This document shows, piece after piece, positions 3,186-33,219 of a stretch of DNA of 64,000 nucleotides (position 1 is its first letter; every line of letters starts with the position of its first letter). The position numbers were made by a program, and so were the translations under genes. The notes beneath the pieces are model-generated. The model was not told the origin of the DNA and did no database searches. It saw nothing but the letters and a program-made list of their open reading frames with translations. Source of the stretch: an uncultured Rhodopila sp. (lineage in GTDB: Bacteria > Pseudomonadota > Alphaproteobacteria > Acetobacterales > Acetobacteraceae); assembly GCA_903932145.1 (NCBI GenBank), contig CAIZFE010000086.1:1-64000 (forward strand), written 5' to 3'.

Positions 3186-3944
3186 TCACGGCCGGGCTTG
3201 GTCCGGCCTCTCGGGACGTTCGCGATCGTTCGCAGGCACGTCCCGGCCGACGAAACGCGCTTTCGCCTTCGCTGCGCGCTTACCCTTACGCGGAGTCGTC
3301 TTATCCGACCCTCGGGACGGCTGCTTCCGGGGATTCGCGCTCACGGGCGTCTCAAAAGCCGTTGCATGAGAATCCATCTCATCATTCGAGACATCCTCCG
3401 CAACCCGCTTCCCCAAACAAGCCGCCGTCACCGAGACCGCCGCCTCAACCCGAGCCGAGACCGGCACCGCCGCTTCCTGCCGTCCGACCTCCGGATCAGC
3501 CACCCATAGCATACACCGCTCCGCGATATGCTTGGTCCAGGCGTCCTGGTTTGCCGCACCCTCGATCGCCTCCCGCTTCTGGCGCAGTGCCTGCACCCGC
3601 ATCAGACGGCCTTGCACCGACAGCGAGGTGCGCACCATCGATCCGTATTGCGCGTTCAGCCGCAACACCAACTCAATATCATCGGCGTTCTCACGGACCT
3701 GCCGCAGCATCTCCTCGGCCTGCGCCCGGGCGGCGATGCAATGGGCGGCGAGATCGATCTCATTCGCGCCGACCGGCATCAGCGCCGCCACCTTGGCGAT
3801 GGCGGCGTAATTTCTGGCGCGGAGCGCCTCGGGCGAGTCATCGAGCGGCGGCGGCAACAGGCCGGTGAGGGTGTACACCAATTGGTAATACATGGGCTGG
3901 GACAGATCGACGGCCGGACGCGGCGGCGGGGGTGAGGTTTTCAT
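3186..3944 (-). CDS. family A protein, full-length member (unknown function)
   Basis: A 252-residue protein that I do not recognise. The N-terminal 80 residues carry LLPPPLDDSPEALRARN and AAIAKVAALMPVGANEIDLA, which recur almost unchanged in the chimeric gene at 31578. A helical, charged middle follows, including SLSVQGRLMRVQAL. The C-terminus is very basic (Lys/Arg/Pro-rich after about residue 200), and its last residues are encoded by a copy of the window's palindromic repeat (3190-3208). The member at 61047 has the same overall plan. No signal peptide is visible; a cytoplasmic, possibly nucleic-acid-binding role is only a guess. The promoter is immediately upstream and may give a leaderless mRNA. 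Confidence 0.75.
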   Translation of the reverse strand: MKTSPPPPRPAVDLSQPMYYQLVYTLTGLLPPPLDDSPEALRARNYAAIAKVAALMPVGANEIDLAAHCIAARAQAEEMLRQVRENADDIELVLRLNAQYGSMVRTSLSVQGRLMRVQALRQKREAIEGAANQDAWTKHIAERCMLWVADPEVGRQEAAVPVSARVEAAVSVTAACLGKRVAEDVSNDEMDSHATAFETPVSANPRKQPSRGSDKTTPRKGKRAAKAKARFVGRDVPANDRERPERPDQARP

Positions 3945-3980
3945 TCCCGGAAAACTAGATTAATTTAGGAAATAAGTCAA
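3945..3980 (-). promoter_or_regulatory. predicted promoter of the family A gene, possibly leaderless
   Basis: Read on the minus strand there is a -35 TTGACT (3980-3975), a 17-base spacer, and a -10-like TAGTTT (3957-3952) only 7 bases before the ATG at 3944. Transcription would start at or next to the start codon, leaving no room for a ribosome binding site. The same TTGACT, 17-base spacer and ATG distance recur before the chimeric paralogue at 31578, and much of the spacer is conserved too (ATTTCCTA-ATTA). That conservation supports a real promoter. Confidence 0.6.
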
Positions 3981-4115
3981 GTAGCGTGCTGTCGCGCGTT
4001 ATGCGGGTTAATCAACGCCGGGATCGAGCCATGGGCCGGGTTGAGCCGTGCCCGCGAGGATGTCAGCATCGCGCAGCCGGTTTTGGGCGTGAAGCCGGAT
4101 CACGGAGGTTGCATC

Positions 4116-5171
4116 ATGCGGGTGGGCATTCAGTTCTTTCCCGATATCGGGCCGGAGGTGAAATCGGCGCGTGACTACTGGCAAGAGGCACTCCGCCTCG
4201 TGGCACTGGTCGATCGCTACTTCTATCACCACGTCCGCACGGTCGAACATTATTTCCTGCCTTATGGCGGTTACAGTCCCAATCCCGTGGTGTTTCTGGC
4301 CGCCGCCGCGCAGGTGACGCGGAACGCTCGGCTGATCACCGGCGCGGTCCTGCCGGCATTCAACCATCCGCTCAAGGTCGCCGGCGAACTGGCGATGCTC
4401 GATGCGTTATGCGACGGACGTCTGGATTGCGGCTTTGCCCGAGCGTTCCTGCCGCACGAATTTCACCATTTTGGTGTCAAACTGGACGAGAGCAGGGCTC
4501 GTTTCGACGAAGGTGTCGCACAAGTGCGCCTGTTGCTGGAGCAAGAGAACGTGACCAGCGAAGGCCGGTTTCATTCGTTCCGGAACATCACCTCCCTGCC
4601 GCGTCCAACCCAAACGCCAAGACCGCCATTTTACGTCGCGGCTCTGGGCACACCGGAGTCGTTCAGGCAGGCGGGGGCCAACGGCTATGGGATCATGGCG
4701 ATTCCAATGGCGGGCGGTGCCATGAAAGAGTTGATCGATATTTACCGGACCGCTTATGCGGCGGCGGGACACAAGGGGCAGGGGACGGTGATGCTGGCGT
4801 TTCACATGCTGTGCCATGAAAATCAGCAAGCGGCCGAGGCACTCGCCCGCGGGCCGATTAACCGTTACTTGCGGTCCCTGGTTGAGTCCGCGTCGGACTG
4901 GACGTCAGGCGCGCGGTCGGTGGACTATCCGGGCTATGATCAGGTCATCGCGGCGCTGGCGCGGGAAACCTTTGAGACGCAGGTCGAGAAATGCGCGGCC
5001 TGGGTCGGCACCCCCGAACGCATTCTCGATACGATCGCCACCTATGAGGCGCAAATTGGTCCGTTCGAGATCGCGTCTGTGCAGGTCAACTTCAATGATC
5101 TGCCACTCGCCGCGGCCGAAGCGTCGATGCGGTTGTTCGGCGAGAGGGTAATGCCGAGATTGGCACAGTGA
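4116..5171 (+). CDS. LLM-class flavin-dependent oxidoreductase
   Basis: A 351-residue luciferase-like monooxygenase, a TIM barrel that uses reduced FMN/F420-type flavin supplied by a partner reductase. Family features visible are the VEHYFLPYGG segment after the first strands, the conserved DALCDGRLDCGFARAF stretch, and a C-terminal GTPERIL helix followed by MRLFGERVMP. The start was placed at 4116 because GGAGG lies just upstream; an in-frame ATG at 4041 lacks this. It is divergent from the family A gene, 171 bases away. The substrate is unknown. One of five full LLM genes in the window. Confidence 0.85.
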   Translation: MRVGIQFFPDIGPEVKSARDYWQEALRLVALVDRYFYHHVRTVEHYFLPYGGYSPNPVVFLAAAAQVTRNARLITGAVLPAFNHPLKVAGELAMLDALCDGRLDCGFARAFLPHEFHHFGVKLDESRARFDEGVAQVRLLLEQENVTSEGRFHSFRNITSLPRPTQTPRPPFYVAALGTPESFRQAGANGYGIMAIPMAGGAMKELIDIYRTAYAAAGHKGQGTVMLAFHMLCHENQQAAEALARGPINRYLRSLVESASDWTSGARSVDYPGYDQVIAALARETFETQVEKCAAWVGTPERILDTIATYEAQIGPFEIASVQVNFNDLPLAAAEASMRLFGERVMPRLAQ

Positions 5172-5203
5172 TCACGGCGTGGACTGAACTGCGTTGACCG
5201 TGG

Positions 5204-5320
5204 CTATCCGCCCTTTGCCCGAGCGGCCGCCAACTCGTCCCGGTAATCCCGCTCAAGCGTCGGTCATTCATTATGCATGAGTATATCGTCGAGGCGCGGA
5301 ATCGGCGGCCGGCCCGTCAC
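5204..5320 (-). pseudogene. HEPN (DUF86) remnant with an internal deletion
   Basis: Immediately after the MNT gene, overlapping its stop (TAGTG), a GTG-started frame reads VTGRPPIPRLDDIL, the typical beginning of a DUF86/HEPN protein, then hits a stop after 18 codons. Past that stop the same frame continues with PTLERDYRDELAAARAKGG and a second stop, which looks like the C-terminal tail of the same family. About 70-80 central codons, including the RNase motif, are therefore missing. Too short for gene callers. This is the second HEPN loss in the window. Confidence 0.6.
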
Positions 5321-5613
5321 TAAAAGACCCGCGCAGCCGAAGTCTCAATCGTCGATTTCAAGGTTCTGTGAATACTATCTCGGCTCATAATGTCGGCGGT
5401 GCGGCCGAGGATATCGGAGGTTCGTTCCTTGACGTCCATCAGTTGGAAAAGTCTGAATTTTCCCTTTTCGTAGTCGAAGAACAGGTCCACGTCCGAGTCC
5501 TCTCGGGCTTGCCCCCGGGCGGTCGAGCCAAAGAGGTACAGATGTTCGACACCAAGCTGCCTTAGCTCGGCCTCATGTTCCTGTAGCCTCGTGATGACGG
5601 CATCGCGTTCCAT
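5320..5613 (-). CDS. MNT-domain nucleotidyltransferase (antitoxin), second copy
   Basis: 97 residues, closely similar to the gene at 277-570, with GS at 29-30 and D41/D43 in SDVDLFFDY. Same length and same start context. It would act as the MNT antitoxin that neutralises a HEPN RNase, but the downstream HEPN has only its two ends left. Survival of the nucleotidyltransferase without the toxin suggests either a recent decay or that the antitoxin acts on a HEPN protein elsewhere in the genome. Confidence 0.85.
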   Translation of the reverse strand: MERDAVITRLQEHEAELRQLGVEHLYLFGSTARGQAREDSDVDLFFDYEKGKFRLFQLMDVKERTSDILGRTADIMSRDSIHRTLKSTIETSAARVF

Positions 5614-5647
5614 GACGTGATCTTACCACACTCCAATGTTTCCGCCG

Positions 5648-6079
5648 TTATCCAACCAATCGCCGCGCAATCCCGATAATCCGGTGCGCCTCCGACCACA
5701 GCCCGTACTGCTCCAGCGCATCCATCGGCGCCCACACCGCGTTCGTCACATCGGTGGCAGCAACCGGCTCCCCCGCCACCCAGCGCGCGGCGAAATCCAG
5801 GATCGTGTAGTGGAACCGCACGCGCCCGTCCTCGTCCCGGCGGATCGTATCGACATGGGCGCAGAAGTGCAGATCGCCGACGGCCAGGCCGCATTCCTCC
5901 ATCAGTTCACGCCGGGCGGCTGCCTCGCAGGTTTCGCCGACGTCCTGAGCGCCTCCGGGCAGGGTCCAGCTTCCGACGTTGGGCGGTTTGCCGCGCTGGC
6001 ACAGCAACACGTGGTCGCCCTTGATCACCACGATGCCGATCCCGACGAACGGGCGCGTCGGATACTCGCGGTCCGTCAT
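5648..6079 (-). CDS. NUDIX hydrolase
   Basis: 143 residues. The NUDIX box GX5EX7REX2EEXG is complete: G43, E49, R57-E58, E61-E62, G64. The framing text FVGIGIVVIKGDHVLLCQRGKPP resembles the ADP-ribose / 8-oxo-dGTP class, but the substrate is not decided by sequence. The start at 6079 overlaps the stop of the DUF4340 gene (ATGA), placing it as the last gene of the ABC operon running from 10499 down to 5648. Longer readings upstream would overlap the preceding gene without a ribosome binding site. Confidence 0.9.
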   Translation of the reverse strand: MTDREYPTRPFVGIGIVVIKGDHVLLCQRGKPPNVGSWTLPGGAQDVGETCEAAARRELMEECGLAVGDLHFCAHVDTIRRDEDGRVRFHYTILDFAARWVAGEPVAATDVTNAVWAPMDALEQYGLWSEAHRIIGIARRLVG

Positions 6080-7101
6080 TTCTTGCCCGCATCGGGCGCG
6101 GGGGCCTCGGCCTTCAGATCGTCCATTCCCGGCACCAACGATTTCTCCTTCCAGGAGCCTATCTGATACGTCCATCCCGCCAGCCGCGCGTTCATCCGCT
6201 CCGCCTCGTCCTTCGTCTTGTCCGAACCGGCGACGGCGAACCGCGCCCACACATCTTTGTCAGCGTGGAACACACTGGCCGTTACCGCAAGCCCGTCGGT
6301 AGTGGTGAACACGGCATGCTCGGCCTTAGTCATCGGGACGTCGGCATCGGCCTTCACCGCCTGGAAGGTCAGCAACTCCAGCGCCCGGGCGACGGCTTCG
6401 ACTTTGTAGGTTTCCAGCTTCGGATGCTCCGCCGGCTGTTCGACTTCGAAATGCCCATCCGCCTGTCCGAACACCAGCGCGCCATCCCCGACGCGGACGG
6501 AGGCAATCCGGTCATGACCGATGTTCATCACATTCTGGTCCAGCCACAGCGCCGGATCGGCATCGACCTGCAACGATCCCTCGGCCAGCCAGGACTGGTT
6601 TTCGTCCGGGCGGCGCACATACACCTCGTCCGGAACGTTCGCCTGGCTGCGTACCCGCCGGTGCCCGACGATCGTCGCCACCATCGGGGTTCCGGCCGCA
6701 TCGACGACCCGCAATAAATCGGCCGAGGAACCGGCTGCATTCGGATCGTCCACGCCCAACCGGCTGAACTGAGCCGGATCGCTGGTCCGGGGCTCCATCA
6801 GCCGCAGTTCCGTCAGTCCCGTCAGCATCCCGCGCAGCTTGATCTCCTGCACCGGATAGTCGCGCATTGACGCGATCCCCCAACCACCGTCGGAACGTTT
6901 TTCGATGACGGTCTGCGTTCCCTGGTGAATGATTTCGATCCGCGCGGCGTTCTTCAACGCGGGCGCCAAATCGGGGAACATCAGCTTGCCGGACGCGACA
7001 TCGGTTCGCTCCGATAAAGTCGTCCGTGTCCCGAAATACCAACCGCCCGCCAATGCGACGACGGCCAGCGCCCCTAGCACGGCAACCGTTCCCGCCCTCA
7101 T
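6076..7101 (-). CDS. DUF4340 domain protein, membrane-anchored component of the Gld-like ABC system
   Basis: 341 residues. An N-terminal hydrophobic anchor (about residues 6-25) ends in a short WYFGTRT segment and is followed by a large exported domain of DUF4340 type, with a SDGGWGIASMRDYPVQ segment and repeated beta-rich units. In other bacteria DUF4340 genes sit next to GldG-like genes, as here; start and stop overlap by ATGA on both sides. Its likely place is the outer face of the inner membrane, bound to the GldG-like partner. The function of the complex outside gliding bacteria is not known. Confidence 0.85.
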   Translation of the reverse strand: MRAGTVAVLGALAVVALAGGWYFGTRTTLSERTDVASGKLMFPDLAPALKNAARIEIIHQGTQTVIEKRSDGGWGIASMRDYPVQEIKLRGMLTGLTELRLMEPRTSDPAQFSRLGVDDPNAAGSSADLLRVVDAAGTPMVATIVGHRRVRSQANVPDEVYVRRPDENQSWLAEGSLQVDADPALWLDQNVMNIGHDRIASVRVGDGALVFGQADGHFEVEQPAEHPKLETYKVEAVARALELLTFQAVKADADVPMTKAEHAVFTTTDGLAVTASVFHADKDVWARFAVAGSDKTKDEAERMNARLAGWTYQIGSWKEKSLVPGMDDLKAEAPAPDAGKK

Positions 7102-8999
7102 GTGCGCGTCCTCGACCGGCGCCGCCGTTGCACGATGCCCATGCCGATCGCCAGCACGGTCAGCAGCGTCGGGACCATAACGATCGTGAAGACACGCATC
7201 TCATTCGCCAACGTCGAGATATCGCGGTTCAGTTCCAACTGCACCGCCCGCAGTTTCTGCCGGGTTTCCAGCACATCCCGCGTCGCGGTATCGATCGCGG
7301 CACGCTGTTCCGGGGTGATGACCGCGTCAGCTTTATCCTTCTCGCCGCCGCCGGAACGCAGCGTCCGCAGTTGTTTCTCGGTCTCCTCCAGATGCGCCTG
7401 CAAGGTCTGTTGGGTCTGACGATACTGCGCCTCGGCATCCGCCTGCATGGCAGCGACCAGGGTAAACGGGTGATTGGTATCGCCGCGCGACCGCAGCCCG
7501 ATCAGCGCATCGCTGCCCGCAAGGGTGCCGATCAGGTTGGCGACGAACGCTCCGTTATCGGCGAACGGCGTGGCGGTCTGCTGCCCGAAGAAGTCGGCGA
7601 TACGCACCCAGAAGCGGTCCACCAGGATGTCGGAATCGGCGACCACCACCATGTTCGCCGGCCCATCCGTCTGGGCTTTATAGTCAGGAAATCCGTCCGG
7701 CCGTTTCTGGTCGCCGGTCAATGGCGGCGGACCGGAGAACGCCGACTTCAGCACGCCGCGCACGCGCGCCGCGATGACCCTGGGCGTGTTGTCGGACTTG
7801 AAATTCGCCAAAACCTTCGCCGGATCGGGCGTCTTGACCTGATCCACGGGGAACAGCCCGCTGTGGTCGCTGCTGGTCAGCAGCGGCGTGAAATCGATCG
7901 ACGATGCCGGCGCCTTCGCCAGATAGCCGGACGACGCCACCGTCACCTGCTGCAAATCCGCCGTCGCCGGGTCGTCGTGGTTGATTCCGTCGTGAATGGT
8001 GAACCAGGCGACATAGCTCACCGCCTGCACCCGGTCGTTGCCGCCGGTGCGCACGCGCCACGCTCCCGTCAGGTCGCCAACAACTTTGGTTGGGTCGAAT
8101 GCGATCCCCCAGGCATCGAACAAAGTCTTCAGGTCCGCGTGCGTGTCGGTCGGGGGCATGCCGGTTTGCGACGGCACTGCCGCCATTCCTTCACTCCACG
8201 GATCGATCATTGCCATCAGCTTGCCGCCGCGCATGACGAACTGGTCGATCGCATACAGAGTCGCGGGGGACAGGTTTTGCGCCTCCGCCACCAGCAGCAC
8301 CTGGATATCCGGATCGATCACCTGCGCGTCCAGCGGCACCGGCTTCACCGTGTTGGTCTGCCGCAGCAGCACCGAGGACGCATACGGTTGCCCGCCCGGA
8401 CCGCGTCCCTGCGACATCATCATGGCGCGCGGATCGCCATCCAGCGGCAGTGACGACATCACCCCGACGACCGGCCGTTTCGGATTGGAGAGTTCATAGA
8501 CCAACTTGGTCAGGTCGTATTCCAGGAACCGCTCCCGGTCGGCCTGGAAGAACGGGATGGTTCGCTCATCGTCTTCCTGGTTGGTGCCGGCCAGGCCGAA
8601 GTAGATCTGCGAGCCACCCTGATCCAGCGGCACCCCTTGCAGCCCATACGCCATCGCCCGGTCTTCGGTGTCGCTGAACGGTTCCGGATCGTACAGTTCC
8701 AGCTTCACCTTACCGCCGGAGATCGAGGCGTAATCCCGCAGCATCTCCCGCACATGGTCGGCATAGGTGCCATAGGTCGGCACCGTGCTGCCCAACTGTC
8801 GCGAGTAGAACAGCCGCAGCGTCACCGGCTCCTTCAGACTCGCCAGCACTTGCTTCGTCCCCGACGACAGCGAGTAGATTTTGCCCTGTGTCAGATCGAG
8901 TTGCACATTCGCCAGACGGGCGTCGGCGAACATGTTGATGCCAATGGCGATGGCCGCGACGGCGATCACGCCAACAATGGAAAACCATAATCTGCGCAT
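7098..8999 (-). CDS. GldG-like ABC transport auxiliary protein
   Basis: 633 residues. A membrane segment at about 5-27 is followed by a long periplasmic region with the GldG features DLTQGKIYSLSSGTKQVL and LRLFYSRQL and a Rossmann-like part, a coiled-coil-rich stretch near 530-590, and a second membrane helix near the C-terminus before a basic RRRRSR tail. The family was named from Flavobacterium gliding motility but is common in proteobacteria, where the role is unclear. It follows the permease by only 4 bases and overlaps the DUF4340 gene. Confidence 0.9.
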   Translation of the reverse strand: MRRLWFSIVGVIAVAAIAIGINMFADARLANVQLDLTQGKIYSLSSGTKQVLASLKEPVTLRLFYSRQLGSTVPTYGTYADHVREMLRDYASISGGKVKLELYDPEPFSDTEDRAMAYGLQGVPLDQGGSQIYFGLAGTNQEDDERTIPFFQADRERFLEYDLTKLVYELSNPKRPVVGVMSSLPLDGDPRAMMMSQGRGPGGQPYASSVLLRQTNTVKPVPLDAQVIDPDIQVLLVAEAQNLSPATLYAIDQFVMRGGKLMAMIDPWSEGMAAVPSQTGMPPTDTHADLKTLFDAWGIAFDPTKVVGDLTGAWRVRTGGNDRVQAVSYVAWFTIHDGINHDDPATADLQQVTVASSGYLAKAPASSIDFTPLLTSSDHSGLFPVDQVKTPDPAKVLANFKSDNTPRVIAARVRGVLKSAFSGPPPLTGDQKRPDGFPDYKAQTDGPANMVVVADSDILVDRFWVRIADFFGQQTATPFADNGAFVANLIGTLAGSDALIGLRSRGDTNHPFTLVAAMQADAEAQYRQTQQTLQAHLEETEKQLRTLRSGGGEKDKADAVITPEQRAAIDTATRDVLETRQKLRAVQLELNRDISTLANEMRVFTIVMVPTLLTVLAIGMGIVQRRRRSRTRT

Positions 9000-26596: not shown

Positions 26597-27604
26597 TCAG
26601 GAGAGAGAGCCGACTTCGGATTCCAGGATCGCCCAGGCCTCGTCGCCGAATTTCTTCTTCCACTCGGCGTAGAAGCCGGCGGCCTTCAAGGCTTCGCGGA
26701 ATGCCGGCTTGTCCACTTCGACGAATTCCAGGCCTTTGGATTTCAGGTCGTCGGCGACAGACCCGTTCAGCCTGGCAATGTCGTCCCGCTCCTGCAGCGC
26801 CGAGGCGTTCAGTTCGCGGGCAATGATGGTTTGTGCCTCGGCGGGTAGTGCCGCGAACCCGCGCTTGTTGCCCAGCATCCAGAACCCGTCCCACATGTGG
26901 CTGGTCATGGAGCAGTATTTCTGCACCTCGTACAGCTTGGCGATCTGGATCAGGGTCAGCGGGTTTTCCTGGCCCTCGGCGATCTTGGTTTGCAGCGCCG
27001 AATAGACCTCGGCGAAGTTGATGCTGATCGGGGAGGCGCCCAAAGCGGCGAACATCGACGTCCACAACGGCGACACCGGCACGCGGATCTTGAAGCCCTT
27101 CAGGTCGGCCGGCCCCTTGATCGGGTGCGTCGAACTGGTGATCTGGCGGAAGCCGTTATCCCAGATTTTGTCGAAGGCGATCAGGCCGCGCTTGTCCACT
27201 TCGGACCGGACATGCGCACCGAGGCTGCCGTCCATTGCTTTCCAAACCGTGTCGTAGTCCTTGAACGCAAAGCCGATGCCGTTGATGGACGCGGCCGGGA
27301 CCAATGTCGACAGAATCAGGCCGGACAGCGTGAAAAAGTCGATCGCGCCCGACCGAAGCTGCGACAGCATGTCCGTGTCGGAGCCGAGCTGATTATTCGG
27401 GAACACGTTAATCTCGACCGCGCCGTTGGTCGCGGCCTTGATGCGATCGGCGGCTTCCTGCTGGCGGATCGATTGCGGGTGCGTGGCCGGCGAATTATTC
27501 GCCAGCTTCAGGCTGAACTCCGCTGCCCGGGCAGGGCGGGTGTTGATGGCGAACAGAGGCAGCGCAGCCCCTGCGATCAGGGTGCGGCGGTTTAACAGCG
27601 ACAT
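26597..27604 (-). CDS. dctP: TRAP transporter substrate-binding protein DctP
   Basis: 335 residues. Twin-arginine-like start MSLLNRRTLIAGAALPLF and cleavage near ARAAEF, then a DctP-type binding protein: HPQSIRQQEAADRIKAATNGAVEINVFPNNQLG early, and the DLKGFKIRVP segment with the conserved Arg that binds the ligand carboxylate. Start at 27604, not the earlier in-frame ATG, because the signal peptide then begins correctly. Partner of the fused permease immediately downstream. Confidence 0.9.
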   Translation of the reverse strand: MSLLNRRTLIAGAALPLFAINTRPARAAEFSLKLANNSPATHPQSIRQQEAADRIKAATNGAVEINVFPNNQLGSDTDMLSQLRSGAIDFFTLSGLILSTLVPAASINGIGFAFKDYDTVWKAMDGSLGAHVRSEVDKRGLIAFDKIWDNGFRQITSSTHPIKGPADLKGFKIRVPVSPLWTSMFAALGASPISINFAEVYSALQTKIAEGQENPLTLIQIAKLYEVQKYCSMTSHMWDGFWMLGNKRGFAALPAEAQTIIARELNASALQERDDIARLNGSVADDLKSKGLEFVEVDKPAFREALKAAGFYAEWKKKFGDEAWAILESEVGSLS

Positions 27605-27839
27605 GCGGGTTCCTTGGGCGTTTGGTCCGGGCGGCAAAATACTGACTGGGACGGGGGTGGCAAGGGACGTTTCCGAGGGGCAGGTTAGAAATATGGCTTA
27701 TAGACCCTATTTATTTCGGGCCGTCGGCGGTCCCCACCGATGGCTTGGGTTGGCCGGGAGCGGTAGGGGTGCTTTCGGACCAGGATAACGAAGAGAGATG
27801 AATCTGCCGATCAGCAGACGCGGCAAGCAACAAAATGGC

Positions 27840-27856
27840 CGCGTCTGGAAGACGCG
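27840..27856 (-). terminator. possible terminator after the DUF262 module
   Basis: On the minus strand CGCGTCT-TCC-AGACGCG, a perfect 7-base stem with a 3-base loop, lies 12 bases past the stop of the last module gene and is followed by CCATTTTG. The T-run is short, so this is a moderate candidate. Confidence 0.45.
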
Positions 27857-27867
27857 CCCATCATCAC

Positions 27868-28829
27868 TCAGCTCTTTGTAATCTTCGGGCCAAGATAAAA
27901 TATTTCTAGCTTCTTCCGATCCTTCCCCAGCGGCCATTCGAAGTGCATCCGGAAAAATCGATGGCTGATCTTGCCGTGCCAGTGCGCGAAATAGCTGCCG
28001 CCCGATGTCCGTTCAAACGTCATTTCCTTGGCAAACATTTTCTGATTTGTCGCAGATTCACCGGTAAACAGTGCCCTCTCGCCGGTGAAATAAGTCTCGA
28101 CGATCTCCCGCGCGACCGGTCCATCCACGCCAGCTTCGCTTCGGCCCGCGACATAGTCGTTGAGTACCTTCATCAGTTCTAGGCTACGATCACGCAGCGA
28201 TGCTTCGAATGGCTCGCGGGCGAGAGCGGAGTTAGCGTGGAGTTCACCGATTTCGAGATTGGGAAAGCGTCGCCGTGCGGCCTCAATCAAAGCGGGCCAT
28301 GACCCAATAAGTCCCTCTGCCGCGAGCGCTTGATTGACGAGCGCGTCGGTCTCCCAGAGATTGGACACGGAGTAGCGGCCGTAACGTTCCTCGCGCAACC
28401 CATGATCGACCCTGAGCAGGCTAACCGCGAAATTGATCCTTCCCCCGACGAAGCTATAGGTAGCGCACTCTACTCCTGCCTTAGTCCTCCGCGCGGCCTC
28501 ACCCAGTCCCGTCGTCGTGACTTCGACGTCCTGATACTCAAAGTAGTCGTCGGCCTCGTCCAACCGGTCATCGTCGACGAAGGGGCCAGTTTTGTCGAGC
28601 CAAGAGAAAGTAGCCGCTCGCAAATCCTTGTCGCGAAGCTCGAACAACGCCCGGGGACGTTGATCTCGGGAGCGACCATCGCCTCCTGCAATGAGCGGGT
28701 CGACCGCAGATTCTGCCAGATCGCCGGAATCCTGACGCGCGCGGCTAACAGGCCGCGAAGTACCCTTTCGAACTCGGTACGGTCGGAAAATTGCGCTTGG
28801 AGAGACGCGTCGTTAAGATACCACCGCAC
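27868..28829 (-). pseudogene. third gene of the DUF262/AAA module, interrupted by a frameshift
   Basis: Two overlapping minus-strand frames make one protein of about 320 residues. The first starts with GTG at 28829, one base after the AAA gene stop, and reads VRWYLNDASLQ to NLRSTRSL. From about 28690 the sense passes to the other frame (RDQRPRALFELRDKDL ... HGKISHRFFRMHFEWP) and runs to 27868. No slippery heptamer is visible at the junction. The frame change is either a real mutation or a sequence error. I cannot name the family. The full-frame C-terminal part has conserved-looking GERALFTGESATNQKMF and LGPKITK segments. Confidence 0.65.
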
Positions 28830-28830
28830 C

Positions 28831-29946
28831 TCAGCCCCACCCGGCGAGCCGCGCGACATCCTTATCGCCCTGATCGAAGAAGCCGTCGGGCCACTCGTTT
28901 ATTCGACCCTCGCTGTCAATTCGCGGATTGGTGACGCCATGCCCCTGAAGAGAACTTCCAGCGAAGAACAAGAGGCTGAGTTGCTCAGCCTCTAATACCT
29001 TATCGCGGACGGCAAGCCTAATTCCATTGAGCACGTGGTCACTGTGCGTTTCGACGATTACTTGGATACCTGCCGCAGCGAAAACGGCTAGGAGATGCCC
29101 CATGCGCGACTGCGCTGAGGGATGAAGATGCGCCTCGGGGCTATCGATTACGACGATGCTGCCGGGCTCGGCGGCGAGTAGCGCGACCAGGATCGGGAAG
29201 GCGTAGGTCAGGCCGTAGCCGACATTTGCCGGGCGTCTCCATTCGCCTGTTTCAGACAGTCTGAATTGGAGCGCAAACATTGATGCAACCGACAATGACT
29301 GCACATTGGCGTTCGCATTCGGTGCAAGGCGGCTGAGCCAAGCGTCGATCTGTTTTCGAAACACCGTAGCGGGTTCGTCCGGGCATCGCCGAGCGGGATC
29401 GATTTCCGCGTCCGCGAATTCGTGATACCAATAGCTGGCGAAGCGTCCGTCAACGCCCACGTCGGGGGATTGGCTACTGACGAGATCGGGGGTCGGGAAC
29501 GCTTCGGCCGGTCCAGCGCGCACCGCACTCAGATGGACGAGGCGAGCGAGGCACTCGGAGAGTTCGGGCCAATTGCCGCTGCCGTCGTCCCTCGTTACGG
29601 TGAGGCTGCGAGCGCCGGTCTTTGCGGTTGCACTTAACGCCAATGACTTTTTATCGCCGAACAGCTTGAAATGTGCGGTAGCGTCGAGAGACTGCGCGCG
29701 AATAACATCGCCGGCGGATCCAAGGCGAACGATCGCGCCGTTTAGGGGCAAGTCGCCCGTGGCCGCCTCGCAGGTCCAGGTGCGGCGGCGCGCAGCCTGG
29801 GCCAGCAGGAGGATCGGCTGGAGTGCGGTTGATTTGCCAGCCCCGTTAAAGCCACTCAACACCGTCAGGGATGCCAACGGAACGCGCAGCTGTTCGAAGC
29901 ATTTGAAGTCCTCGATTTGCAGCGCCTTCAGGATCGGGTTGGTCAC
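28831..29946 (-). CDS. AAA/RecF-like ATPase with DUF3696-type C-terminus
   Basis: 371 residues. Walker A GFNGAGKST at about 33-41, Walker B with acidic tail SIVVIDSPEAHLHP, and H-loop/switch ETHSDH: the SMC/RecF/OLD-like ATPase core found in many phage-defence systems. The last 30 residues (RIDSEGRINEWPDGFFDQ) match the DUF3696 tail. Overlaps the DUF262 gene by ATGA and the third gene begins one base after its stop, so the three form a strict unit. Likely a nucleotide-dependent sensor or regulator of the module. Confidence 0.85.
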   Translation of the reverse strand: MTNPILKALQIEDFKCFEQLRVPLASLTVLSGFNGAGKSTALQPILLLAQAARRRTWTCEAATGDLPLNGAIVRLGSAGDVIRAQSLDATAHFKLFGDKKSLALSATAKTGARSLTVTRDDGSGNWPELSECLARLVHLSAVRAGPAEAFPTPDLVSSQSPDVGVDGRFASYWYHEFADAEIDPARRCPDEPATVFRKQIDAWLSRLAPNANANVQSLSVASMFALQFRLSETGEWRRPANVGYGLTYAFPILVALLAAEPGSIVVIDSPEAHLHPSAQSRMGHLLAVFAAAGIQVIVETHSDHVLNGIRLAVRDKVLEAEQLSLLFFAGSSLQGHGVTNPRIDSEGRINEWPDGFFDQGDKDVARLAGWG

Positions 29947-31061
29947 AGCGCCATCTCCTCCGCGTCCTCGAGTGTTTTGAATCGCTGGTGCACGGCCTGC
30001 GTGCTATTGGTCGAATACGTAATCGACTTCGCGAATGTGTCGTCCTTGACCCGATCAATCATGAAGTCGCGGAGGGCGGCATCGTTTTTGGGATCGAATG
30101 TCTCGGCGAAGCGAGCGAACACCACTGCGCTTACCTCGAACAGTGAGATATTGATGGGACTGCGCGCGGCCACGTCCAACTCGGACGCCAATGATTTGCG
30201 AAAGGCATGCTGATGGAACAGCCGGTAGGAAAGCGTCATTGCGGCATCAAATCTGCGGCGGAGATCGAGCTGTGCCTGCTCGTCGCAGTCGGCCAGAAGC
30301 TTGATTCCCCTCGCTAAGAACCCGTCCATGTCGCCGGTCCGGTAGTTCTGCCATCCGATCAGCGAGAAGGCGACAAACCGATTGATCGCCTCGCGGTCTC
30401 GCATGGTCAGCCTGTCCAGCGATCCGGCGGTGGCCGTTTGGAATGGTGTGCCCTCTGCGGCCGATTTGAGCCATTGCGTTGCAGGCCCGTTGTAAAGCGC
30501 GTTCCGCATTTGCTGGCGCGTGAGCATCGCCCCGCTATTGACGCGCTCGAAAATGTCGAGCCGGGCGCGCTCGGGCGCCTTCGCATCAAGAATGTACATG
30601 GTGAGCTGAGTATCTGCCACGCGCTCTTGCAGGTTCAGTGGTAGCCGCTCAAAGGTCTTTCCTTCCAGCTCATGCGATCCAGCGTTTTGTCCACTGACTA
30701 GCCCGGTCAGCTTCAATTCGCCGCCGAGGAAACGGGCAAATGTTGTGAGGCGCTGCAAGCCGTCGACCACGATGATTCGCCCGTCCGGCGCCTCGGCCAC
30801 GTAGAAGACCGGCAGTGGTATACGCATGATACAGCTCTCGATGAGCTTGGACTGCTTGGCGTTCGGCCATACGAAGTCACGTTGAAAATCAGGATCCAGG
30901 ATGTAGCGCTTCTTCTGGATGCGGTTAACGACCTCGCCGACCGTACGCTGTTCGGTGCGTACAAATACCGCGTCGAGCGGGTAGTCGCCCCAGCCGTCGC
31001 CGCTAGGATCTTCTACGCCTTCAGGCTCATCGGCGACGTCGACAGGCGGTTGTTCATTCAT
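29943..31061 (-). CDS. DUF262 (GmrS/ParB-like) protein
   Basis: About 372 residues. An acidic N-terminal stretch, then the DUF262 core: DPDFQRDFVWPNAKQSKLIESCI, IPLPVFYVAE, and the hallmark VDGLQRLTT. DUF262 is the N-terminal half of the type IV restriction enzyme GmrSD, where DUF1524 supplies the HNH nuclease. No DUF1524 or HNH motif is seen in the C-terminal half here, so this is a nuclease-less or diverged DUF262 protein. Start uncertain: ATGs at 31061 and 31073, and a longer frame to 31172; none has a clear ribosome binding site. Confidence 0.85.
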   Translation of the reverse strand: MNEQPPVDVADEPEGVEDPSGDGWGDYPLDAVFVRTEQRTVGEVVNRIQKKRYILDPDFQRDFVWPNAKQSKLIESCIMRIPLPVFYVAEAPDGRIIVVDGLQRLTTFARFLGGELKLTGLVSGQNAGSHELEGKTFERLPLNLQERVADTQLTMYILDAKAPERARLDIFERVNSGAMLTRQQMRNALYNGPATQWLKSAAEGTPFQTATAGSLDRLTMRDREAINRFVAFSLIGWQNYRTGDMDGFLARGIKLLADCDEQAQLDLRRRFDAAMTLSYRLFHQHAFRKSLASELDVAARSPINISLFEVSAVVFARFAETFDPKNDAALRDFMIDRVKDDTFAKSITYSTNSTQAVHQRFKTLEDAEEMAL

Positions 31062-31542
31062 GTGCGCTACCATTCTGGGTTTTGCTCGCCGTTGGCTGGT
31101 CTGCGGCGTCGTTTCAATCTCTCTTGGGCCACTATCCCGGCTTCCCTTATCCCAACCCAACCGCGTGGCCAATCAAGAAACCGCGCCACATAAAGCATCG
31201 TTACATCTTCCCTGGAAAAGTGTACCCCTAATCCCCGCCGACGCTCTCAGTCGGCGGCTTCCCTCTCAGACGCCTCACTTCCGTGGCAGTCAATGGCCCA
31301 TAACTGAAATGGTGTCCGCTTTTGGGGTCCAGTGCTTACGTTCGGATCGACCGCCATTGGCGCCGAGCGCACGTAACATTGCAGCTGTTTGCTTCCGGTC
31401 CGCCCATGACGATGGGGAAACGGCATCGACCTGAGGCGGTTATGTCCGGACCGGCCCTTCGGCCGGCGATAACTGTGCCGAAATCCGGTTGCCACATCTG
31501 GGTTCACCTGATGAACCCAGACCAGAACAGAACCAGGACGCC
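31062..31542. other. gene-free, hairpin-rich gap upstream of the DUF262 module
   Basis: No gene is recognisable over about 480 bases. Three perfect hairpins are visible: CCGCCGAC/GTCGGCGG at 31235-31257 (7-base loop), CCGGCC-CTTC-GGCCGG at 31451-31466, and CTGGGTTCA/TGAACCCAG at 31498-31520 (5-base loop). The last lies just upstream of the chimeric gene's promoter. The text around 31310-31345 (TGTCCGCTTTTGGGGTCC) looks like degenerate intergenic sequence rather than coding. The gap is the likely boundary of the accessory island. Confidence 0.5.
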
Positions 31543-31577
31543 TTGACTAATTTCCTACATTAGGTTATCAGTCAGGG
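31543..31577 (+). promoter_or_regulatory. predicted promoter of the chimeric gene, possibly leaderless
   Basis: TTGACT (31543-31548), 17-base spacer, TATCAG (31566-31571), then 6 bases to the ATG at 31578. It matches the promoter at 3945-3980 in element spacing and in much of the spacer sequence, so the promoter was duplicated together with the coding start. Transcription should begin at about the start codon, implying a leaderless mRNA. Confidence 0.6.
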
Positions 31578-32153
31578 ATGGAAACCTTATCCCCACCACC
31601 GGCCATCGATCTTTCCAAGTACCTGTATCATCAGGTCATCTATACCCTCACCCGCCTGTTGCCGCCGCCGATTGATGACTCGCCCACGGCGCTGCTCGCC
31701 AGAAACCACACCGCCATCGCCAAGGTCGCCGCGCTGCTGCCGGTCGGTGCGAATGAGCTCGATCTCGCGGCCGAGTGCATCGCTGCGGCGCGCGAGGAGG
31801 CGGGGCGGGCGGTCGAGACGTTGTTCAACGACTTCCTGCGGCAGACGTTCGAGATGCTGATGCCGCCCGGCTATACGTCGATGGCGTCGATGAAGAATTT
31901 TGTCCGCAACCGCGCCGCGCTGCGCGGCGACAAGCTGACGGCTGAGGCGCTGATCGACAGCGGCACGGCGCTGATCGGTAGCCCCAAGACGGTGCTGGCG
32001 GGTATCGAGCGGATGCGGGAGCGAACCGGATTTGGGATTCTCGTGGCGATGCTTCAGTTCGGCATCCTTTCGGACGAACTCACCCGGCGTAACATGGACC
32101 TGTTCGCCGCCGAGGTGATGCCGCATTTGAGAGACCGATACCTCGTGCCGTAA
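31578..32153 (+). CDS. chimera: family A N-terminus fused to LLM oxidoreductase C-terminus
   Basis: 191 residues. Residues 1 to about 78 are nearly the same as the start of the 3944 gene (LLPPPIDDSPTALLARN, AIAKVAALLPVGANELDLAA). Residues about 79-188 are the C-terminal third of a luciferase-like oxidoreductase (MLMPPGYTSMASM, ALIGSPKTVLAGIERM, MDLFAAEVMPHLRD). The junction is near 31810. The flavin barrel is incomplete, so no oxidoreductase activity is expected. The frame is clean across the join, and the promoter is intact, so it may be expressed. It could be a pseudogene by origin. Confidence 0.7.
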   Translation: METLSPPPAIDLSKYLYHQVIYTLTRLLPPPIDDSPTALLARNHTAIAKVAALLPVGANELDLAAECIAAAREEAGRAVETLFNDFLRQTFEMLMPPGYTSMASMKNFVRNRAALRGDKLTAEALIDSGTALIGSPKTVLAGIERMRERTGFGILVAMLQFGILSDELTRRNMDLFAAEVMPHLRDRYLVP

Positions 32154-32271
32154 CCTGCCGCGAGCTTCGGCTGATGCCTGGACTAAACGGCCCAAGCTGA
32201 TTGAGCATAGTTGGGGCTGTAAACCTTTTGGTAAGAATTGCGGCGTAGTCTCGGTCGTTGGAGATCGAGAC

Positions 32272-33219
32272 ATGTTGAATTCCGCTGTACGTTCGTTTTT
32301 TGGACGATTGCCACCGCGCCAGTTCGGAGCGTCGAATTTGCCCGTCGCTGCGCTGGCACCTGACATTCTGCCGGTTAGGCCGGTTGGGCCGGTCGTGACT
32401 GGGGCTGAAAAGAGCCGAACCGACTGGCCGGCCGCACGGTTGTCGTTGTCCAACACTCTGTGGGGAAACGGCTACATCGTCCCTGGCGGCGAGTTCGAGA
32501 TCCTACGTCTGACCCGGCCGCTGGGTGCTTCATCCGCGGCCAGCCTGCTGATCGTTGGCGTTGGCAGCGGCGGTCCGGCCGTGGCCGTCACACGCAACCT
32601 TGGGGCCCGGGTGGTGGGGATGGAAAGCGATCCCGTGCTGCTCGCCGCAGCCAGAGGACTTGTCGTACGGTCCCAACTTGATCGCAAAGTAACACTGCAA
32701 GCCTGGGAGCCGAACGCTCCGGCGTTTGGCGTCGCCGGCCATCATCATTGCGTGGCCCTGGAGCCGTTTCAAGACGGGCAACCAGAACCCATCGCCGTTG
32801 CACTCGCGCAGGCGTTAAAGCCGGGCGGCCAAATGGTGATCGCTGCGCTGGCGGCCGCCGCGCCGCTGAACCCCGCCGACCGGACTGTGCGCCGTTGGGC
32901 CGAATTGGAGCAACGCGATCCGTCCTCCGTGCTGACTTCCGTAGCGGTGACCCGGATGCTCGGTCGTATCGGGTTGGATGTCCGCATCGCCGAGGACATC
33001 TCCGTTCGGCATATGGAAGATGCATTGTTGGGATGGCGTATGTTGTTGCGTGACTTGCCGGCGACCCGGCCTACTTCGGTGCAAGCCGCGCAATTGGCCC
33101 GCGAGGCGGAGTTGTGGCTGCTGCGACGCCGGTTGGTCCGGGACGGGCGGCTGCGGATGATGCACTGGCATGCGATGAGCCGGCCACCCTCCGTCGTCCC
33201 GTCCGAGTGGGTGAATTGA
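32272..33219 (+). CDS. class I SAM-dependent methyltransferase
   Basis: 315 residues. A SAM-binding motif I LLIVGVGSGGPAVAV followed by the acidic end of strand 2 (GARVVGMESDP) and ALKPGGQMVIAALA (motif III). The N-terminal 70 residues include DWPAARLSLSNTLWG. The C-terminal part is helical and Arg-rich. The acceptor substrate is unknown. It precedes a secreted GH5 glycosidase by 88 bases and may belong to a polysaccharide-related group. Confidence 0.75.
   Translation: MLNSAVRSFFGRLPPRQFGASNLPVAALAPDILPVRPVGPVVTGAEKSRTDWPAARLSLSNTLWGNGYIVPGGEFEILRLTRPLGASSAASLLIVGVGSGGPAVAVTRNLGARVVGMESDPVLLAAARGLVVRSQLDRKVTLQAWEPNAPAFGVAGHHHCVALEPFQDGQPEPIAVALAQALKPGGQMVIAALAAAAPLNPADRTVRRWAELEQRDPSSVLTSVAVTRMLGRIGLDVRIAEDISVRHMEDALLGWRMLLRDLPATRPTSVQAAQLAREAELWLLRRRLVRDGRLRMMHWHAMSRPPSVVPSEWVN

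Follow-up and report, generated by a model that had tools for sequence, protein, structure and literature searches.

The window analyzed here, a 64,000-nucleotide stretch of contig CAIZFE010000086.1 from an uncultured Rhodopila sp., contains a three-gene unit at positions 27,868 to 31,061 that is identified by its sequence matches as Menshen, an already-published anti-phage system present in PADLOC. The genes of this system are named nsnA, nsnB, and nsnC (NsnABC). The copy sits in the chromosome of one strain and is absent from its close relatives. It is best read, with good confidence, as a horizontally acquired operon in which nsnC is split by one frame change, so that the copy is probably silent; in the intact system, NsnA and NsnB would gate a RelE/YafQ-like ribonuclease, NsnC. 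The locus adds one more copy of Menshen, whose insertion left a visible footprint and whose effector gene is probably dead.

All three genes lie on the minus strand. The intact nsnA gene (29943..31061; ATG start) encodes a 372-amino-acid (aa) DUF262/GmrSD_N protein with the motif VDGLQRLTT (Pfam GmrSD_N at 1.8e-22), and the intact nsnB gene (28831..29946; GTG start) encodes a 371-aa ABC/SMC-type ATPase with the P-loop GFNGAGKS and a DUF3696 tail (AAA_21 at 1.8e-22, DUF3696 at 5.7e-11). The two genes overlap by 4 bases, and the GTG of nsnC at 28829 lies one base past the nsnB stop. The initial annotation, made from the letters alone, had described just such tight packing (an ATGA overlap, then a one-base gap), a DUF262 protein with VDGLQRLTT, an SMC/RecF-like ATPase with a DUF3696 tail, and no HNH half of GmrSD, and on all of these points it is borne out. 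No gene of the unit has a Pfam match to DUF1524 (HNH), NsnB has none to a TOPRIM nuclease, and the nsnC product, in the window pieces and in relatives, has no Pfam match above chance.

The PADLOC models place all three proteins in order. NsnA matches at 2.7e-113 over residues 28-366 and NsnB at 6.1e-98 over residues 6-369, while NsnC is matched in two parts, at 6.9e-11 for the first piece (residues 1-59) and 6.2e-89 for the second (residues 62-318). NsnA also matches PD-T4-2_A at 4.6e-27; neither nsnC piece has a PADLOC match to PD-T4-2_B. The candidate defense system of the initial annotation therefore stands as a defense system, and falls as an unnamed one, since it matches Menshen in PADLOC and in print. 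Passages of a review (PMC10952713), which cites Millman et al. 2022 as the source of Menshen, describe it as a system that has a DUF262 gene, lacks DUF1524, and loses resistance when the DUF262 gene is mutated or deleted; the Nsn gene names do not occur in that review.

In the sequence as given, the frame of nsnC changes between 28653 and 28647. The first piece (28653..28829) runs from the GTG at 28829 through the N-terminal ~59 residues, and the second (27868..28647), in a different frame, is a 259-aa open reading frame (ORF) covering NsnC residues ~62-320, of which the last ~130 are predicted to form a RelE-like domain. The single third protein of about 320 residues proposed earlier is consequently not encoded by any one frame. 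A working copy would have three genes in open frames; here nsnC is split, and because of this the window copy is probably not working. Of 276 NsnC relatives above the threshold, 119 were listed (P0005-P0123). A length of 310-330 aa is found in 99 of the 119, and from these 99, 59 homologues with less than 75% mutual identity were picked. The two nsnC pieces keep 45/45 residues invariant among the 59, NsnA keeps 120/121 positions invariant in 12 relatives, and NsnB keeps 73/75. Because these residues are retained, the break is either recent or an assembly error.

The second of these possibilities, an error of sequencing or assembly in a strain with a complete, working Menshen, is the strongest competitor, although it is the less probable one. 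The break adjoins a stretch of consecutive C and G bases, and intact NsnA and NsnB together with the unbroken set of NsnC invariants look like genes under ongoing selection. However, the quality figures given for the assembly are high (100% complete, 0.13 contamination, a 448,529-base contig), and in the protein collection the 259-aa form of NsnC groups 4 member sequences from 5 contigs, the longest being the contig of the window, so other assemblies may share the break.

The operon lies within an accessory segment (27722..32208) that also holds an ORF at 31578-32153 and finds no blastn match in the best congener, G011; homology to this genome ends at 27721 and picks up again at 32209. The flanking solute-binding gene (26597-27637) and 315-aa gene (32272-33219) lie on one contig in 13 of 32 other congeners, where the gap between the matched stretches is about 120-820 bases versus 4,634 here. 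A 112-aa-type gene occupies the site in nine of these 13 and was not found there in G008, G006, G030, and G029; in G011 it is a Cupin_2 gene (Pfam 6.3e-08). At the same place in the window, on the plus strand, is the probable start of a truncated cupin gene (27693..27734; MAYRPYLFRAVGGP, ~14 codons). Its agreement with the G011 gene (50% over 14 residues, E 1.8) is weak alone, but its position is as expected, and the segment of ~4.5 kilobases apparently took the place of most of this gene. Among 193 relatives, NsnC occurs in the window's own genome alone, which has one DUF262 gene. From this distribution we infer that the Menshen operon was gained by horizontal transfer. No segment ends, integrase, or repeats were recognized at the insertion.

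Beyond this genus, a scan of species genomes with two conserved NsnC peptide patterns, which would miss distant forms, returned 14 loci, and in 13 of these the genes stand in A-B-C order. Their hosts, by their organism names, are Alpha-, Beta-, and Gammaproteobacteria and one metagenome-assembled genome of the Chthoniobacteraceae. An intact example is locus L004 of Sphingobium naphthae, whose NsnA and NsnB are 78% and 67% identical to those of the window and whose NsnC is 64% identical to the relative P0005. The fourteenth locus (L016, Agrobacterium cavarae) has a C-terminal nsnC remnant adjoining a Tn3-family transposase (4989-8354; DDE_Tnp_Tn3 9e-142), an arrangement that looks like a Menshen operon wrecked by a transposon. 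A plasmid scan gave three matches, of which two were examined, one on a conjugative plasmid of Cupriavidus and one on a plasmid of the cyanobacterium Crinalium; both are annotated with DUF262, DUF3696, and a hypothetical protein, in order. The same NsnC patterns found no match in a phage collection. Some gene starts in these relatives may be misplaced: P0061 (247 aa), the NsnC matched to locus L003 (8001-8957), looks too short, the DNA having a full frame from a GTG, and the annotated nsnC of the Cupriavidus plasmid likewise begins 252 bases inside the match. The initial annotation had named two findings that would count against its candidate, namely co-occurrence confined to one lineage and a third family known as a housekeeping enzyme. 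Neither was found: the A-B-C order spans several lineages, including the cyanobacterial plasmid, and the third family has no Pfam match above chance.

NsnA relatives were also sought in a phylum set of 398 genomes (own genome included), and 51 genomes have one at E <= 1e-30. Of 61 places listed in the other genomes, 40 were fetched. An NsnB relative comes next in 21 of the 40 (one, L082, partial), followed in 19 of the 21 by a third gene of 249-344 aa. In the two exceptions the next ORF is 128 aa (L082) or the fetched stretch ends (L087). Six of the 19 third genes are similar to P0005 by BLAST, and in a profile comparison the divergent group g1 is linked to NsnC (probability 95), whereas the result for g2 is ambiguous (48).

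For the ~130 residues at the C-terminal end of NsnC, the structure model resembles RelE/YoeB/YafQ RNase toxins and Cami1, and the predicted RelE-like domain carries conserved H/K/R residues. No RelE-type Pfam family was matched among the 59 NsnC members at E <= 5. An H-x-K...R motif lies ~35 residues before the C-terminal end in 16 of the 19 third genes downstream of NsnB relatives, versus a mean of 0.34 in 2000 shuffles (largest 3); without the P0005-similar proteins the count is 10 of 13 versus a mean of 0.24 (2000 shuffles, largest 3). The motif was picked after viewing the protein ends, so the shuffle test is descriptive only. Of the exceptions, L094 shows, by eye, an extended version of the motif, L078 is without the Arg, and the L093 third gene lacks the motif, yet PADLOC calls it NsnC. 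The RelE-like model suggests that NsnC is probably the effector, the role the initial annotation had proposed for the third protein.

In the intact system, NsnA (a DUF262 NTPase) and NsnB (an ABC-type ATPase) would most likely act jointly as sensor and gate for NsnC. Upon infection, they would free or switch on the C-terminal RelE/YafQ-like domain of NsnC, which would then cut mRNA, probably on ribosomes, and so halt phage production. The specific proposal that a DUF262 NTPase and an ABC ATPase restrain NsnC as a RelE-type ribonuclease, so that Menshen would cut mRNA and stop translation rather than restrict DNA, is put forward at about even chances. Among the papers searched, none links Menshen to RelE, save one review in which each word occurs once. 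Li et al. 2025 (NAR gkaf357) reportedly treat Menshen domain polymorphism, to judge by the title. The mechanism of Menshen is still listed as unknown in a 2026 review (PMC12926258), and the idea that NsnC is a RelE-fold RNase with a named invariant residue set is testable.

A GmrSD-like type IV restriction system, in which NsnA would bind modified phage DNA and NsnB and NsnC would cut it, is unlikely. The GmrSD_N domain of NsnA would fit such a system, as would the predicted OLD nuclease named for Menshen in passages of the review PMC10952713, but the unit lacks both DUF1524/HNH and a TOPRIM match in NsnB, and the model of the C-terminal domain of NsnC resembles RNase toxins. A programmed frameshift producing short and long NsnC forms is highly improbable: the two long nsnC pieces do lie in neighboring frames with no further damage seen, but NsnC is in a single frame without internal stops in 15/15 relatives checked (13 genome loci and 2 plasmid loci, some near-identical; L016, in which only the C-terminal third matches, was left out).

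The remaining features of the accessory segment flank the operon. The ORF at 31578..32153 (plus strand, 191 aa) has no Pfam match, and over its first ~70 codons it is a member of a repeated gene family: the stretch 31542-31787, which includes its 5' part, recurs in the genome as 19 near-complete copies (72-82% identity) plus partial ones, with one near-complete copy at 3730-3991 of the window. The initial annotation had placed the unit in an island of hairpins and a chimeric gene. Four inverted repeats of 8-12 bases, of which three are perfect and the other is at 92%, are indeed present in the flanking gaps, a count with no chance control, while the presumed chimera is this ORF of repeated 5' part and no Pfam family. 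Hairpins at 27815-27861, 31235-31257, and 31497-31521, on both sides of the operon, are possible terminators or insertion traces.

Genes downstream of NsnA-like DUF262 genes also vary. No NsnB relative comes next in the other 19 of the 40 places, of which 17 have another ORF and two have no ORF found by the script. Seven such ORFs were scanned (L097, L098, L103, L105, L107, L108, and L109; 165-225 aa); six match HEPN families and L107 matches PD-T4-2_B. The six HEPN-matching ORFs have no PADLOC match, and the DUF262 proteins upstream of all seven are weaker NsnA-like proteins. DUF262-HEPN neighbors are not new: a 2013 survey (PMC3710099) lists operons that combine RiboL-PSP-HEPN genes with ParB-type genes. 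If NsnC is such a restrained RNase, then, taken together with the DUF262-HEPN pairs, DUF262 proteins would be general triggers of effectors that cut RNA.

Compared with known systems, the unit shares all three proteins and the usual gene order with Menshen and differs in its split nsnC. With GmrSD, BrxU, and SspE (DUF262 plus DUF1524) it shares the DUF262 domain, although the window has VDGLQR where published passages on those systems give DGQQR, and in place of the DUF1524 HNH nuclease it has an ATPase and NsnC. PD-T4-2 and the DUF262-HEPN pairs likewise set a DUF262 protein beside a candidate effector, but they pair it with a HEPN-type or PD-T4-2_B protein, and no NsnB-like gene was detected adjoining their DUF262 genes. 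In contrast to the RelE/YoeB/YafQ toxins and Cami1, whose fold its last ~130 residues are predicted to share at just 5-15% sequence identity, NsnC adds an N-terminal part of ~180 residues.
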